Below, piece by piece: positions 28,733 through 61,336 of a stretch of DNA of 64,000 bases (positions are counted from its first letter, which is position 1; the number at the start of each line of letters is the position of its first letter). Position numbers and translations under genes: made by a program. The stretch comes from Novisyntrophococcus fermenticellae (lineage in GTDB: Bacteria; Bacillota; Clostridia; Lachnospirales; Lachnospiraceae), in the NCBI RefSeq assembly GCF_018866245.1, contig NZ_CP076458.1, forward strand, positions 372,001 to 436,000. Reading direction: 5' to 3'. Under the pieces are notes generated by a model. It had not been told where the DNA came from. It made no database searches and saw only the letters and a program-made list of their open reading frames with translations.

Positions 28733-28740
28733 CTATATAG

Positions 28741-28840
28741 TTATACGACTGACGGAAGTGGAATTGACCACAGGAAGTATAATTTATGAAAAGGCCGACC
28801 GTCTGGGCAGAATGTCTGGATTGGTGTGTGGTCTTTTTTT
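28741..28840 (+). ncRNA. ZTP (pfl) riboswitch with terminator, upstream of IMP cyclohydrolase
   Basis: P1 pairs TTATAC (28741-28746) with GTATAA (28777-28782). Inside it a GTGG/CCAC hairpin follows the GACTGACGG segment. Then comes the conserved CCG...CTGGGCA loop (CCGACCGTCTGGGCA, 28796-28810), which forms the pseudoknot in the 10f-ZTP motif. The expression platform ends in GGTC plus seven T (28830-28840). ZTP signals 10-formyl-THF shortage, which fits control of AICAR transformylase. Confidence 0.85.
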
Positions 28841-32664: not shown

Positions 32665-32785
32665 AGGAGTTACCTCATCGAAATTGCTTCCTTACGCCGG
32701 TATTATCCGGTTCAAGTGATAAGGGTCAGCGGTCACCCCGCATTCTCAGCTATAAAAGCACCCCTAGCGTATTGTTTTGTTGTGG
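32665..32785 (-). ncRNA. TPP riboswitch controlling thiT
   Basis: Read on the minus strand, the THI-box landmarks occur in order: CTAGGGGTGC (32767-32758), AGCTGAGAATGCGG, GACCCTT, GAACCGGATAATACCGGCGTAAGGAA. After the aptamer AACTCCT can pair with the AGGAGG ribosome site just before thiT (32641-32650), which suggests translational control. No T-run terminator is seen. Confidence 0.95.
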
Positions 32786-36064: not shown

Positions 36065-38458
36065 ATGGAGACGATACAGATTTCTGTACGTGCCCTGGTC
36101 GAATTTCTGCTGCGCAGCGGAGACCTGGATAATAGAAGGGGAGGCTGGGCTGATAAGGAAGCGATGCAAAAAGGCAGCCGGATACACAGAAAAATACAGA
36201 AACGAATGGGATCAGGGTATATGGCGGAATATCCTCTGATTTACGAAAAACAATTTGAACATTATATCCTTAAAATTGAAGGCCGGGCGGACGGAATTTT
36301 TTCTGAGGACGGAATGGATGTAATCGATGAAATCAAGAGCACTTATGCGCCTTTAGAACATCTGGAAGAGCCGCTACCTGTTCATATAGCTCAGGCCAAA
36401 TGCTATGCCTATATTTATGCTCTGCAGAAACATAAAAAACAGATGCGGGTTCAGATGACCTACTGTAATCTGGAAACAGAGGATATCAGGCGTTTTCAGG
36501 AAGAGTATACGATGGAAGAACTGGACAACTGGTTTACGGATTTGACAAATCAGTATCATAAGTGGGCCGAATTTCAATACCAGTGGAGGCTAAAGCGGGA
36601 TGCATCCATGCAGGGGCTGGAATTCCCTTATCCATATCGGGAAGGACAGAAGAAGCTGGTGTCGGATGTTTACCGGACGATCCTTCGAAAAAAGGAGTTA
36701 TTTGTTAATGCACCGACCGGTGTGGGGAAAACTTTGTCAACTTTGTTTCCGGCTGTGCGAGCCGTAGGCGAAAAAAAGGGTGATAAGATTTTCTATCTTA
36801 CTGCGAAAACAATTACCAGAACTGTAGCCGAAGAAGCTTTTACTACTTTAAAGCTTCACGGCTTGGTTTATAAAGTTATAACACTGACCGCTAAGGAAAA
36901 GATGTGTGTCTGCGAAGAAATGGAATGCAATCCGGAAACTTGTGAAAGGGCAAAGGGTCATTACGACAGGGTCAACGATGCCGTCTTTGAGCTCCTGAAC
37001 AACTGTGATACCTTTTCACGGGATATCTTGCTGGAGGCAGCCCAAAAAGCTGAAGTCTGCCCTTACGAATTCCAACTCGATCTGGCAACCTGGGCAGATG
37101 CGGTAATTTGTGATTATAATTATGTGTTTGATCCGGTGGTTCATCTGCGCCGCTTTTTTGGGGAAGGTACGGGAAAAGGTGAACATCTCTTTTTGATCGA
37201 TGAGGCCCATAATCTGGTGGAGCGGGGCAGGGAGATGTACAGTGCTTCCGTGTTCAAGGAGGACTTTCTGGAAATAAAGCGTATTATAAAGCCATATACA
37301 CTGCATAAGAAGCTTACCAATGCGCTGGAGAGATGCAATCGACAACTCTTAGGATATAAAAGGGAGTGTAGTGAAACGTGTCTGGAGTTGACCAACGTGG
37401 GCGAATTTGTTATTTCAATGATGAACCTGCTGGGGGAGCTGGAAAAGTTTCTGCAGGATTATAAAGAAGGTGCGCATAGAAAAAAGATTCTGGAGTTTTA
37501 CTTTTCTGTGAGATCATTCGTGAATATCTATGAATTGCTGGATGAAAATTATATGATTTATGCCATGCATACAGAGGAGGGCAGGTTTATGCTGAAACTC
37601 TTCTGCGTCAACCCTGCGGCCAATCTTCAGGAATGTCTGAATAAGGGGCGGAGTGCAGTATTCTTTTCTGCAACACTTCTTCCCATCAAATATTATAAAA
37701 AACTGTTCTCGACCAATACGGATGATTACGCGGTTTATGTGGGTTCCCCTTTTGAACCGGGGAATCGGAAACTGATTCTGGGGAGGGATGTGAGTACAAG
37801 GTATACCAGACGAGGGATGGAGGAATATACGAGAATTGCTTCTTACATCAGTCAGACAGTGAAACAGAAAAGGGGAAATTATATGGCGTTTTTCCCCTCT
37901 TACCGTATGATGGAGGATGTGTACCATATTTTTTGTGAATCCTTCCTTCCGGGACTGGAGGAGGATGGGAAGGTGGAGACGCCGCTCCAGTCTTCAGGTA
38001 TGAACGAGCGTGAACGGGAAGAGTTTCTGGATGCATTTTCCGGGAATGGTGGGCAGGGTGAGAGCCTGATCGGATTTTGCGTCATGGGGGGTATCTTCTC
38101 AGAGGGAATTGATTTGGATGGAGAACAACTGATTGGCGCAATTGTGGTGGGAACCGGGATTCCCCAGCTGAGCGTGGAAAGAGAACTGTTAAAGAAATTC
38201 TATGACAGAAGAGGGGAAAATGGTTTTGACTATGCTTACCGCTATCCGGGTATGAATAAGGTTCTCCAATCGGCGGGACGCGTCATCCGTACGGCACAGG
38301 ATAAAGGCGTGGTAGTGCTTTTGGATGAACGGTTTCTACATCGGGAATACTTGAATCTGTTTCCTACAGAATGGAGTAATTACACAGCATGCAGCCTCAG
38401 AACAGTAGCGGGTGAAGTAAGACAGTTCTGGGATGGGGAGACTGGCTGCGCTACTTAG
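36065..38458 (+). CDS. PD-(D/E)XK nuclease fused to DinG/Rad3-type Fe-S helicase
   Basis: A 797-residue superfamily 2 (XPD/DinG-like) DNA helicase with an N-terminal nuclease domain. Nuclease residues: GSRIHRK (His41), GRADG (Asp76), DEIKS (Glu89-Lys91) and the Cas4-like QAKCYAY near 110. Helicase: Walker A APTGVGKT (216-223), DEAH (379-382), and the Fe-S cysteines C281, C283, C288, C293 and C332 between them. The C-terminal motif VI region QSAGRVIRT is intact. Likely role: processing of branched or single-stranded DNA ends in repair. TGGAGTG before the ATG. The stop is only 5 bp from the repeat array. Confidence 0.9.
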   Translation: METIQISVRALVEFLLRSGDLDNRRGGWADKEAMQKGSRIHRKIQKRMGSGYMAEYPLIYEKQFEHYILKIEGRADGIFSEDGMDVIDEIKSTYAPLEHLEEPLPVHIAQAKCYAYIYALQKHKKQMRVQMTYCNLETEDIRRFQEEYTMEELDNWFTDLTNQYHKWAEFQYQWRLKRDASMQGLEFPYPYREGQKKLVSDVYRTILRKKELFVNAPTGVGKTLSTLFPAVRAVGEKKGDKIFYLTAKTITRTVAEEAFTTLKLHGLVYKVITLTAKEKMCVCEEMECNPETCERAKGHYDRVNDAVFELLNNCDTFSRDILLEAAQKAEVCPYEFQLDLATWADAVICDYNYVFDPVVHLRRFFGEGTGKGEHLFLIDEAHNLVERGREMYSASVFKEDFLEIKRIIKPYTLHKKLTNALERCNRQLLGYKRECSETCLELTNVGEFVISMMNLLGELEKFLQDYKEGAHRKKILEFYFSVRSFVNIYELLDENYMIYAMHTEEGRFMLKLFCVNPAANLQECLNKGRSAVFFSATLLPIKYYKKLFSTNTDDYAVYVGSPFEPGNRKLILGRDVSTRYTRRGMEEYTRIASYISQTVKQKRGNYMAFFPSYRMMEDVYHIFCESFLPGLEEDGKVETPLQSSGMNEREREEFLDAFSGNGGQGESLIGFCVMGGIFSEGIDLDGEQLIGAIVVGTGIPQLSVERELLKKFYDRRGENGFDYAYRYPGMNKVLQSAGRVIRTAQDKGVVVLLDERFLHREYLNLFPTEWSNYTACSLRTVAGEVRQFWDGETGCAT

Positions 38459-38463
38459 ATATT

Positions 38464-39023
38464 GCCTGGCATTAGGAATTACTACAGTTCAGCCAGGCTC
38501 GATTCCGCTGCGCTTCAGCTCGCTTTGGCAGAGCGCCAAATAACATCAAAATAGTGCAGTCATACGAAAGCAAGCTTTCTCCTGCCTGCATTATTTTAAT
38601 GTTGCCTGGCATTAGGAATTACTACAGTTCAGCCAGGCTCGATTCCGCTTGGCTTCAGCTCGCTTTGGCAGAGCGCCAAATAACATCAAAATAGTGCAGT
38701 CATACGAAAGCGAGCTTTCTCCTGCCAGCATTATTTTAATGTTGCCTGGCATTAGGAATTACTACAGTTCAGCCAGGCTCGATTCCGCTGCGCTTCATCT
38801 CGCTTTGGCAGAGCGCCAAATAACATCAAAATAGTGCAGTCATACGAAAGCAAGCTTTCTCCTGCCAGCATTATTTTAATGTTGCCTGGCATTAGGAATT
38901 ACTACAGTTCAGCCAGGCTCGATTCCGCTTGGCTTCATCTCGCTTTGGCAGAGCGCCAAATAACATCAAAATAGTGCAGTCATACGAAAGCAAGCTTTCT
39001 CCTGCCAGCATTATTTTAATGTT
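38464..39023. repeat. Tandem array of four 140-bp structured repeats
   Basis: Four near-identical 140-bp units start at 38464, 38604, 38744 and 38884. Each begins with a hairpin (GCCTGGC ... GCCAGGC, first copy 38464-38498) and ends with an AT-rich hairpin (AACATCAAAATAGTGCAG with CTGCATTATTTTAATGTT, 38542-38603). Units differ at a handful of sites, mainly GCTGCGCTTCA versus GCTTGGCTTCA. The array fills the space between the helicase and LysR genes and has no coding potential. Confidence 0.95.
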
Positions 39024-39043
39024 GCCTGGCTGAACTGTAGTAA
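38479..39043. mobile_element. MITE-like element containing the amplified repeat, with 20-bp terminal inverted repeats
   Basis: TTACTACAGTTCAGCCAGGC at 38479-38498 is the exact inverse of 39024-39043. Taking away the extra tandem copies leaves a single element of about 145 bp, close in size and layout to the solo element at 46284-46420. The right terminus lies inside the LysR coding region. No transposase is encoded; mobility is inferred. Confidence 0.6.
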
Positions 39044-39904
39044 AAATTCTTTTGCTGCCTGAGGGATGGGGAGATGGGCGTTGTGGGCGATTACCAGTTG
39101 TCTGGTGGGCAGGTCTTCGGCGATTTGAACCTGAAAAAGGTTCTGGGAATTTTTTATGCAGTAGTCAGGGACAAATGCGATTCCTAAACCGATATTAGCC
39201 AGATCAATCAGCAGGTCATTACTTCCCAGCTCGATTTCCGGCACCAGATCCAGCTGATGCTGTTGAAAGAGGTTGTGCAGAAACTCACTGGTTGTACTTT
39301 TTCGATCCAGCATCAGAATGGGGTGCTCCAATAATTCTTTAAGATGAATCTTCCGGCCTGTCAGCTGAGAAAAATAGTCCCGGTTTGCGATAAAGACATC
39401 CTGAAATTCATAGATAGGAATGGTTGTCATCCTGCTGGGCAGCCTGGAGTTGGGGAAGTTAGTCACAATCAGATCCACTTGCCCGGATTCCAGGAGATCG
39501 ACACATCGGGTAGAAGTTTGATTGGTTACCTTTATATGGACGTTGGGATAACTTTTATGAAACTTTTGCAGGTAAGAAACCAGATAATAGCGGCAGATGG
39601 TATCGCTGGCACCGATACGCAGCTGACCGCCGCCCAGAGTGCTGGACTCCATAATCTGAGCTTCTCCCCGCTGAATCAGATTGACTGCCGGCTCAATGTG
39701 ACGAAGTAGTGTTTCTCCTTCCGGGGTGAGCTGCACCTTCTTTGTACTGCGGATGAAGAGACTGATTCCCAGTTTTTTTTCCAGAACTTTGATGGACTGG
39801 CTGACTGCAGACTGAGAGATAAACAACTGCTTTGAAGCCTCGGAAAAACTGAGCGAGACAGCAACATAATAGAATACTTTATATAATTCATAATTCACAT
39901 CCAT
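39011..39904 (-). CDS. LysR-family transcriptional regulator
   Basis: LysR-type regulator of 297 residues. N-terminal winged helix: YEVFYYVAVSLSFSEASKQLFISQSAVSQSIKVLEKKLG-like pattern (residues 6-45, with VSQSIKVLEKKLGISLFIRS visible). The C-terminal effector domain follows (GASDTICRYYLVSYLQKF, VDLIVTNFP). The last ten residues (LLQFSQATLK) and the stop are encoded by the palindromic repeat element, so the native C-terminus may have been replaced. It lies downstream of, and on the same strand as, the phosphatase gene, and there is no divergent target gene, so its regulon is unclear. RBS AAGGAGG. Confidence 0.92.
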   Translation of the reverse strand: MDVNYELYKVFYYVAVSLSFSEASKQLFISQSAVSQSIKVLEKKLGISLFIRSTKKVQLTPEGETLLRHIEPAVNLIQRGEAQIMESSTLGGGQLRIGASDTICRYYLVSYLQKFHKSYPNVHIKVTNQTSTRCVDLLESGQVDLIVTNFPNSRLPSRMTTIPIYEFQDVFIANRDYFSQLTGRKIHLKELLEHPILMLDRKSTTSEFLHNLFQQHQLDLVPEIELGSNDLLIDLANIGLGIAFVPDYCIKNSQNLFQVQIAEDLPTRQLVIAHNAHLPIPQAAKEFLLQFSQATLK

Positions 39905-40817: not shown

Positions 40818-40888
40818 GGGTCAAAATAGTAACAGTTCAGCCACCGCTTCCGCATGGCTGAACTGTTACCCAAAATACCTTTTGACCC
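40818..40888. repeat. Palindromic intergenic element (short form)
   Basis: An inner perfect 15-bp inverted repeat, GTAACAGTTCAGCCA (40829-40843) and TGGCTGAACTGTTAC (40855-40869), lies inside an outer repeat, GGGTCAAAA (40818-40826) and TTTTGACCC (40880-40888). The CAGTTCAGCCA core is shared with the 140-bp array and, as ATTCAGCCA, with 46284-46420. Confidence 0.75.
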
Positions 40889-46272: not shown

Positions 46273-46283
46273 AATGACTTAAT

Positions 46284-46420
46284 GTTACTATTCAGCCACA
46301 AGCTCGATTACGCTGCGCGGCATCTCGCTTGAGCTAAGCGCCCTATGCAAAAAGCCCAGTCTTTAACAAGCGAGCTTGCATGGGCCAGGCTCTGCTTTTT
46401 GCGCATGGCTGAATAGTAAC
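46284..46420. mobile_element. Solo MITE-like palindromic element (137 bp)
   Basis: Perfect 15-bp terminal inverted repeats, GTTACTATTCAGCCA (46284-46298) and TGGCTGAATAGTAAC (46406-46420). The interior GCTCGATTACGCTGCGC...CATCTCGCTTGAGC...AGCGCC parallels the interior of the 140-bp array units (GCTCGATTCCGCTGCGC...CTCGCTTTGGCAGAGCGCC). No coding capacity. No clear target-site duplication was found by eye. Confidence 0.7.
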
Positions 46421-46430
46421 AAAAAACAGC

Positions 46431-61030: not shown

Positions 61031-61336
61031 AGTTCCCTTCCTTTCTTTCGGGTCAGTACACGACTTTCCCGTTAGTTGGGGGTTTTGCCCCTGTCAAATT
61101 CATGTTTTTTCATGCGAGCATGAAACACATGACCTTTTGACCCCCATGCTACTAAGGATTGTTCCGCACTTTGTGCTCCCACAATCCTAAAAACATTCGA
61201 AATCCGCCCTATCGGGCTACTTTCTCATGTTTTGCGGGTCCCAAATTCATGTTTTTTCATGCAAGCATGAAACACATGACTTTTTGACCCTAGTATCATT
61301 ATATTACTGTAAATTTTGTTGTCAAGAAATGTATAG
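61031..61336. repeat. Repeat-rich intergenic region upstream of hydG
   Basis: Two 49-bp copies (61095-61143 and 61242-61290, 47 of 49 identical) of a palindromic unit: TTTCATGC/GCATGAAA stem within CATGT/ACATG, ending TTTTGACCC. Between them is AGGATTGT/ACAATCCT (61155-61188) and the copy of the ATTCGAA-TCCGCCCT repeat also found at 39925-39962. No coding region. Confidence 0.8.

Follow-up and report, generated by a model that had tools for sequence, protein, structure and literature searches.

The window, i.e., the whole stretch of 64 kb that was analysed, carries a tandem array of four 140-bp units (38464-39023, 97-99% identical). To the left of the array a plus-strand ORF ends at 38458, and from the right the last codons of a minus-strand ORF (39011-39904) extend into it. 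Tandem Repeats Finder (TRF) returned one array at 38462-39030 with a period of 140, 4.1 copies and 97% matches, and this result together with the comparison of the units confirmed the four units and the 140-bp period described in the first-pass annotation. The outer arms, 38479-38498 and 39024-39043, form the perfect 20-bp inverted repeat that it had also reported, and the second of them is contained in the 3' end of the minus-strand ORF. Apart from this 3' end, no ORF of at least 80 aa overlaps the array. The features considered here are as follows:

38462-39043, minus (this being the strand that folds): whole array, made up of four 140-bp units and the closing arm
38464-38603, minus: unit 1, the most distant from ORF 39011-39904
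38604-38743, minus: unit 2
38744-38883, minus: unit 3
38884-39023, minus: unit 4, a complete element together with 39024-39043; scored highest in the array with the model (145 bits at 38898-39044)
39024-39043, minus: 5' strand of the outer stem P1 of the complete element, within the 3' end of ORF 39011-39904
38962-39023, minus: P3, long stem with a sequence that varies between loci, apex GAAAGCTTGCTTTC
38944-38960, minus: P2, TTTGGC-GCTCT-GCCAAA hairpin
38919-38943, minus: P4, hairpin with opposed GA/GA steps (GC-GA-GAT..ATC-GA-GC)
38899-38918, minus: 3' strand of P1 of unit 4
38462-38470, plus: first of the five TTGCCTGGC junction repeats
40829-40869, unstranded: short derivative with the P1 palindrome only, flanks identical in 7/8 bp; minimal form of the same element
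46283-46421, minus: the same element as a solo copy, with perfect outer arms of 16 bp
61147-61298, minus: Clostridiales-1 RNA (RF01699), 133 bits; proposed distant relative
61082-61143, minus: partial copy of positions 9-70 of the preceding feature, 3 nt past its 3' end, 88.7% identical

The 9-mer TTGCCTGGC marks all five unit boundaries (38462, 38602, 38742, 38882, and 39022) at a spacing of exactly 140 bp, and these five are its only matches in the 64-kb window, with 0.68 expected. The units differ from one another at only five positions (47, 48, 55, 109, and 124). The variant sites GCTGCGC/GCTTGGC and CAG/CAT combine differently in each unit, as had been noticed earlier, and all four combinations are present across the four units. 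The stepwise duplication derived from this pattern is too simple, since all four combinations at sites 7-8 bp apart need recurrent change or gene conversion as well.

The array folds with a z-score of -13 against 20 shuffles. The scan for promoter-like sites returned four (38525, 38665, 38805, and 38945; 9/12 matches; 0.8 expected), one in each unit and all on the plus strand, which is opposite to the fold. The minus (folded) strand of the array had none, and this speaks against transcription of that strand from within. The search of the array for Rho-independent terminators, i.e., a GC-rich hairpin followed by a T run, gave one site against 1.0 expected by shuffling, and the suggestion of a terminator bank was dropped. 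No Rfam family matched the array above threshold; only eukaryotic miRNA and snoRNA models appeared, below their gathering scores. The window also has TPP (32672-32775, minus) and ZMP/ZTP (28735-28815, plus) riboswitches. Of the open-licence PubMed Central papers listed in literature searches, none was recognised as describing the element.

Copies of the element and their mobility

Search of the host genome with the covariance model gave 42 matches at E<=1, antisense and partial ones included. A lack of other copies in the genome, which the first-pass annotation had named as refuting, is thus not what was observed: further arrays and solo copies are present. The other tandem arrays lie at 92.3 kb, 114.0 kb and 2.882 Mb, the one at 114 kb being found by the covariance model and having a quite different P1. 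At 1.819 Mb a full copy has a partial neighbour, whereas the full-length copies at 418 kb (46283 in the window) and 1.285 Mb are solo. The array at 2.882 Mb lies between what we take by eye to be the 3' end of uvrB and a CIRCE-like operator; the names LysR-type and DinG-like helicase for neighbouring genes are likewise our assumption, given by eye. Lone outer arms near gene ends, with no evident partner, were seen at positions 3281164, 2438603 and 2500958 of the same genome and are perhaps remnants of deletions.

Of the 397 genomes sampled from the family of the host, own genome included, 168 were matched by the model at E<=1e-6, with at most seven candidates per genome scored under stricter filters; 41 aligned copies were inspected singly. 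In one genome of the same genus, two contigs start inside copies with the same P3 stem; arrays may thus break assemblies. A weak match of 33 bits, at 1944451 of another genome, is situated between genes that by eye we presume to encode 5S and 16S rRNA.

Intact copies begin with GTAAC(W)(R)TTCAG and end with its complement (GTAAC..GTTAC). Exact flanking repeats of 8 bp, i.e., target-site duplications, border 17 of the 41 copies, with 0.3% expected by chance, and no exact flanking repeats of 5, 6, 7 or 9-12 bp were found in these 41. In genome G046, perfect outer ends numbered 48 against 0 for the reversed pattern. The 8-bp duplications and the end counts imply that the element family transposes; judged by its sequences, it is mobile. 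It is also MITE-like, having terminal inverted repeats, a target duplication of fixed length in the family, and a short body without coding capacity. No clean 8-bp target repeat was found at the array itself. A search for an autonomous parent in G046, G139 and G059, the three genomes with exact ends, did not reveal any two such ends that face inward at a distance of 1-5 kb.

The conserved fold and its strand

Six diverged full-length copies of the host genome share one fold, in which the outer stem P1 encloses the hairpins P3, P2 and P4; each unit of the array thus has three hairpins within an outer stem and not the two counted before. The element is about 143 bp long. P3, the first hairpin, has a locus-specific stem sequence and a conserved apex (GAAAG-CTTG-CTTTC type), P2 is a short hairpin of the GGGC-GCTCT-GCCC type, and the stem of P4 is interrupted by the opposed GA/GA steps. 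Changes on both sides were observed in 27 of 53 pairs among the six loci. In an alignment of 35 rows (34 loci, two of which gave two rows each; the near duplicates L263 and L271 as well as L242 and L132 omitted), 94.5% of the cells were paired and 50 of the 53 pairs had two-sided changes, although this alignment was fitted to the covariance model and leans towards structure. Its covariation score was 0.719, compared with 0.09-0.12 for versions with slid partners.

The same alignment gave information on the strand. G-U outnumbered A-C by 48 to 12 (p 3e-6), and by 142 to 61 in 82 rows (p 1e-8), p-values that are overstated because the cells of related copies are not independent. The GA/GA steps, which read TC/TC on the opposite strand, are present in 34 of the 35 rows. 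Both the G-U excess and the GA/GA steps suggest that the strand that would fold, as RNA or as single-stranded DNA, is the minus strand in window orientation. A structured RNA, one of the options raised in the first-pass annotation, gained support from covariation, with single-stranded DNA beside it.

Such conservation might mean that the element is a regulatory or structural RNA selected for a benefit to the host, e.g., protection of mRNA 3' ends or a role as sRNA, with arrays raising the dose. We consider this doubtful. The pairing of P1 kept through two-sided changes in 16 of 17 pairs (35 rows), the GA/GA steps and the excess of G-U over A-C speak for it. The neighbouring genes were compared at 116 loci (36 high-scoring ones from the first sets and 80 among the 397-genome matches listed, with several loci from one genome). 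There, 26 of the 59 upstream ORFs co-directional with the element end between -12 and +10 bp from it, which would suit such an RNA, but the GTAAC end may itself supply the stop codon of the adjoining ORFs. Co-directional upstream ORFs did not significantly exceed the others (59 vs. 43, p 0.14), and the lack of a significant orientation bias argues against a general read-through RNA role. The target repeats are AT-rich with no evident gene preference (by eye), and a closely related genome lacks the element at this locus.

The perfect stems could alternatively be maintained by quasipalindrome correction, i.e., arm-to-arm copying during replication, rather than by selection on the fold. The arms reach into locus-specific sequence, for 20 bp here and, with one mismatch, for 24 bp at 92 kb (by eye), and wobble pairs are few overall (48 of 1784 cells in the 35 rows), as this process would predict. 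A strand-neutral process would not be expected to leave G-U over A-C at 4 to 1 in the 35 rows, but in 17 copies located by their ends and not by the model the excess is smaller, 35 vs. 21. The conservation of the unpaired GA/GA steps and of the apex (by eye) also stands against correction as the source of the stems, and we regard this explanation as improbable to about the same degree as a selected host RNA.

One-sided neighbours and the Clostridiales-1 RNA

The first-pass annotation did not mention on which side of the element the extra copies lie. At each of the 116 loci the best-scoring copy was compared with up to 400 bp on either side (the left, or 5', side was testable in 115, the left flank of L271 being too short at 37 nt, and L444, L407 and L445 had less than 150 nt on one side). 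Direct repeats of part or all of the element were found beside 36 of the 116, in 36 cases on the 3' side of the folded strand and in 0 on the 5' side. Random 150-bp segments of the first 36 loci, used as a control, had any repeat in 1 of 108. The first added copy starts within 30 nt of the end of the element in 31 of the 36 cases, and at 45, 66, 71, 168 and 183 nt in the others. Inspection of the junctions at 26 loci showed the first copy to be complete; a spacer derived from the local flank follows, and then come copies that start anywhere from P1 to P4, the last one often being 3'-truncated.

Among 19 copies whose target repeats agree in at least 7/8 positions, only one had neighbouring copies, compared with 35 of 97 others (Fisher p 0.006), and the 17 copies located by their ends had none on either side. 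Since a copy with good target repeats hardly ever has neighbours, arrays seem, from these comparisons, to grow after insertion. The direction of the replication fork was considered as a cause of the polarity and rejected. Position 1 of the host genome carries what we take by eye to be dnaA-like and dnaN-like genes, and the sign of the GC skew switches in the interval from 1.55 to 1.72 Mb (with the samples at 180 kb and 2.06 Mb, two of 20, off the pattern). Two arrays (92 kb and 114 kb) run with the inferred fork and two (410 kb and 2.882 Mb) in the opposite direction; this split makes it unlikely that fork direction sets the polarity, as far as four arrays of one genome tell.

A comparable polarity was observed for the Clostridiales-1 RNA, which a table of Weinberg et al. 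2010 (PMC2864571) grades as probably an RNA and probably not cis-regulatory. Its cut-off was passed in 177 of the 397 genomes, many of which had at least seven matches. Neighbouring repeats were present at 5 of 30 Clostridiales-1 loci (L480-L509), five on the right (3') side, which was testable in 29 (the right flank of L489 is 2 nt), and none on the left. The copy in the window at 61147-61298 likewise has no upstream repeat and only a partial repeat of the first hairpin downstream. When Clostridiales-1 was extended to the next hairpin, exact direct repeats of at least 6 bp flanked 12 of 25 copies, compared with 10 of 600 mismatched pairs, under an end rule that was set after the sequences had been viewed; the first rule gave 5/16 exact at 6 bp and 3/16 at 7 bp. 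In the count of 25, five of the 30 loci had been dropped as lacking a 3' hairpin end, and the ends of L496 and L502, visibly misplaced by the rule, were scored as misses. With its 3' polarity and target duplications of 6-7 bp, Clostridiales-1 looks in sequence like a transposable element.

The element family of the array is probably a distant relative of Clostridiales-1 and not a member of it. RF01699 was not among the matches to the array up to E=10, so that its gathering score of 48 was not reached there; of 20 relatives, three matched below this score (44.5, 35.9, and 34.2), and none of 20 others matched at gathering level. By eye, both have an outer stem around a long first hairpin with the apex GCUUGC, and the Clostridiales-1 hairpins with AUGaAG../CGGAaU internal loops were counted as a further likeness. 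Both are multi-copy in the same bacterial family, with neighbours only on the 3' side and with target duplications. However, Clostridiales-1 has the ends TGATG..CATC, duplications of 6-7 bp and an extra 3' hairpin, whereas the element has GTAAC..GTTAC, 8 bp and no such hairpin.

Origin of the array

A close relative (L081) has 0 units at this locus, and the 5' strand of P1 is followed there by a near-identical 9-mer and the end of the downstream gene. This site is either an original P1-like site or the product of loss of the element by exchange between the 9-bp repeats; on the sequence both would fit, and the alignment with a more distant relative (L108) favours neither. The 9-mer bounds the unit in both cases, and 0 vs. 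4 copies fits slippage or unequal exchange between short repeats. In L108 (Candidatus Pelethocola), the sequence past position 2230, beyond the same gene end, contains a hairpin that by eye resembles the first hairpin of Clostridiales-1.

Altogether, we explain the array, with a probability of about 0.77, as a non-autonomous MITE-like element which inserted at the 3' end of ORF 39011-39904 and multiplied in place by slippage or unequal exchange. This agrees largely with the first-pass annotation, which saw a dispersed MITE-like palindrome related to 46284-46420 and amplified in situ. The target-site duplications, the covariation and the matches in 168/397 genomes bear it out, as does the copy-number comparison it had called for, with 0 units in the close relative and four here; the terminator bank did not hold, and the one-sided placement of copies is added.

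In the proposed course of events, the element of about 143 bp would have been moved in trans by a putative transposase into the 3' end of the minus-strand ORF, and transcription of the folded strand, if any, would come from read-through. The fold might be kept for a role in the single-stranded form of one strand, i.e., RNA or single-stranded DNA in transposition or replication. After insertion, synthesis of the folded strand would overrun the 3' foot of P1, mostly by less than 30 nt, slip back to a short match inside the element, which at this locus would be the 9-mer, and recopy a part or all of it. Later unequal exchange could then turn one partial copy into an array. Slippage alone does not account for the polarity of 36 vs. 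0. Strand-specific template switching is our first choice of mechanism for it, and reverse transcription is the bolder one.

Reverse transcription would imply RNA-templated growth, i.e., that a read-through transcript is reverse-transcribed and the often truncated cDNA joined just downstream of its template, which would lead to copies only on the 3' side. The polarity in two families (36/36 and 5/5, plus the Clostridiales-1 copy of the window), the even split of the host arrays relative to the inferred fork, the many added copies that start inside the element, and the fact that only a single strand would exist as RNA are in line with it. We nevertheless find this quite unlikely, as it would call for a putative reverse transcriptase, many end copies are 3'-truncated as well, the promoter-like sites all face the opposite way, and plain tandem duplication at short repeats (9 bp here) is compatible with several arrays.

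The weakest proposal is that the element derives from an IS66 transposon and is mobilised by IS66 transposase. IS66 transposons have GTAA ends and 8-bp duplications, and this likeness, together with one IS66 remnant ending in GGCTGAATTGTTAC, a half copy of the element's end (L289/L350, G088), made the parentage look promising. It was weakened by the different ends of the nearest relatives of this remnant, which are 89-90% identical and end in GCGTTTAC. The inner end of the element was clearly matched in only 1 of 36 IS66 loci, that broken remnant, by a rule-based test that took the longest ORF per locus as a proxy for the transposase, which in some loci it may not be. A one-mismatch end match in L339 lies inside the end of its ORF, and IS66 matches were absent from 4 of 12 element-rich genomes tested (G046, G050, G108, and G169). 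The derivation from IS66 is thus very improbable.

According to PMC3049150, BOX and RUP of Streptococcus pneumoniae are interspersed repeats of small size; their terminal inverted repeats are paired in the predicted RNA, they have target duplications, and BOX has tandem internal modules. In action, the pneumococcal BOX would be the nearest known analogue of the MITE-like element at this locus. BOX repeats an internal module, whereas the element has its additional copies, whole or partial, past the 3' foot, and the likeness is one of description.

The ordinary part of the finding is an interspersed repeat amplified at a short direct repeat. The unusual part is a large mobile family that is absent from the Rfam copy used; its single-strand fold is strongly conserved, and it shares its one-sided growth with a catalogued RNA family. 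It is tempting, if speculative, to see in Clostridiales-1 and the present family a class of mobile elements defined by a folded single strand and by strand-specific growth, which would place copies only past the 3' end; such growth, RNA-templated or on folded single-stranded DNA, would yield whole or partial copies.

A curated Rfam small-RNA family and its unlisted relative thus appear to be transposable elements, and this apparent nature means that covariation alone is no proof of a host gene for the "conserved RNAs" of gut bacteria. The one-sided extra copies provide a testable clue to the amplification of small structured repeats, and the locus itself is a natural 0/4 copy-number marker.
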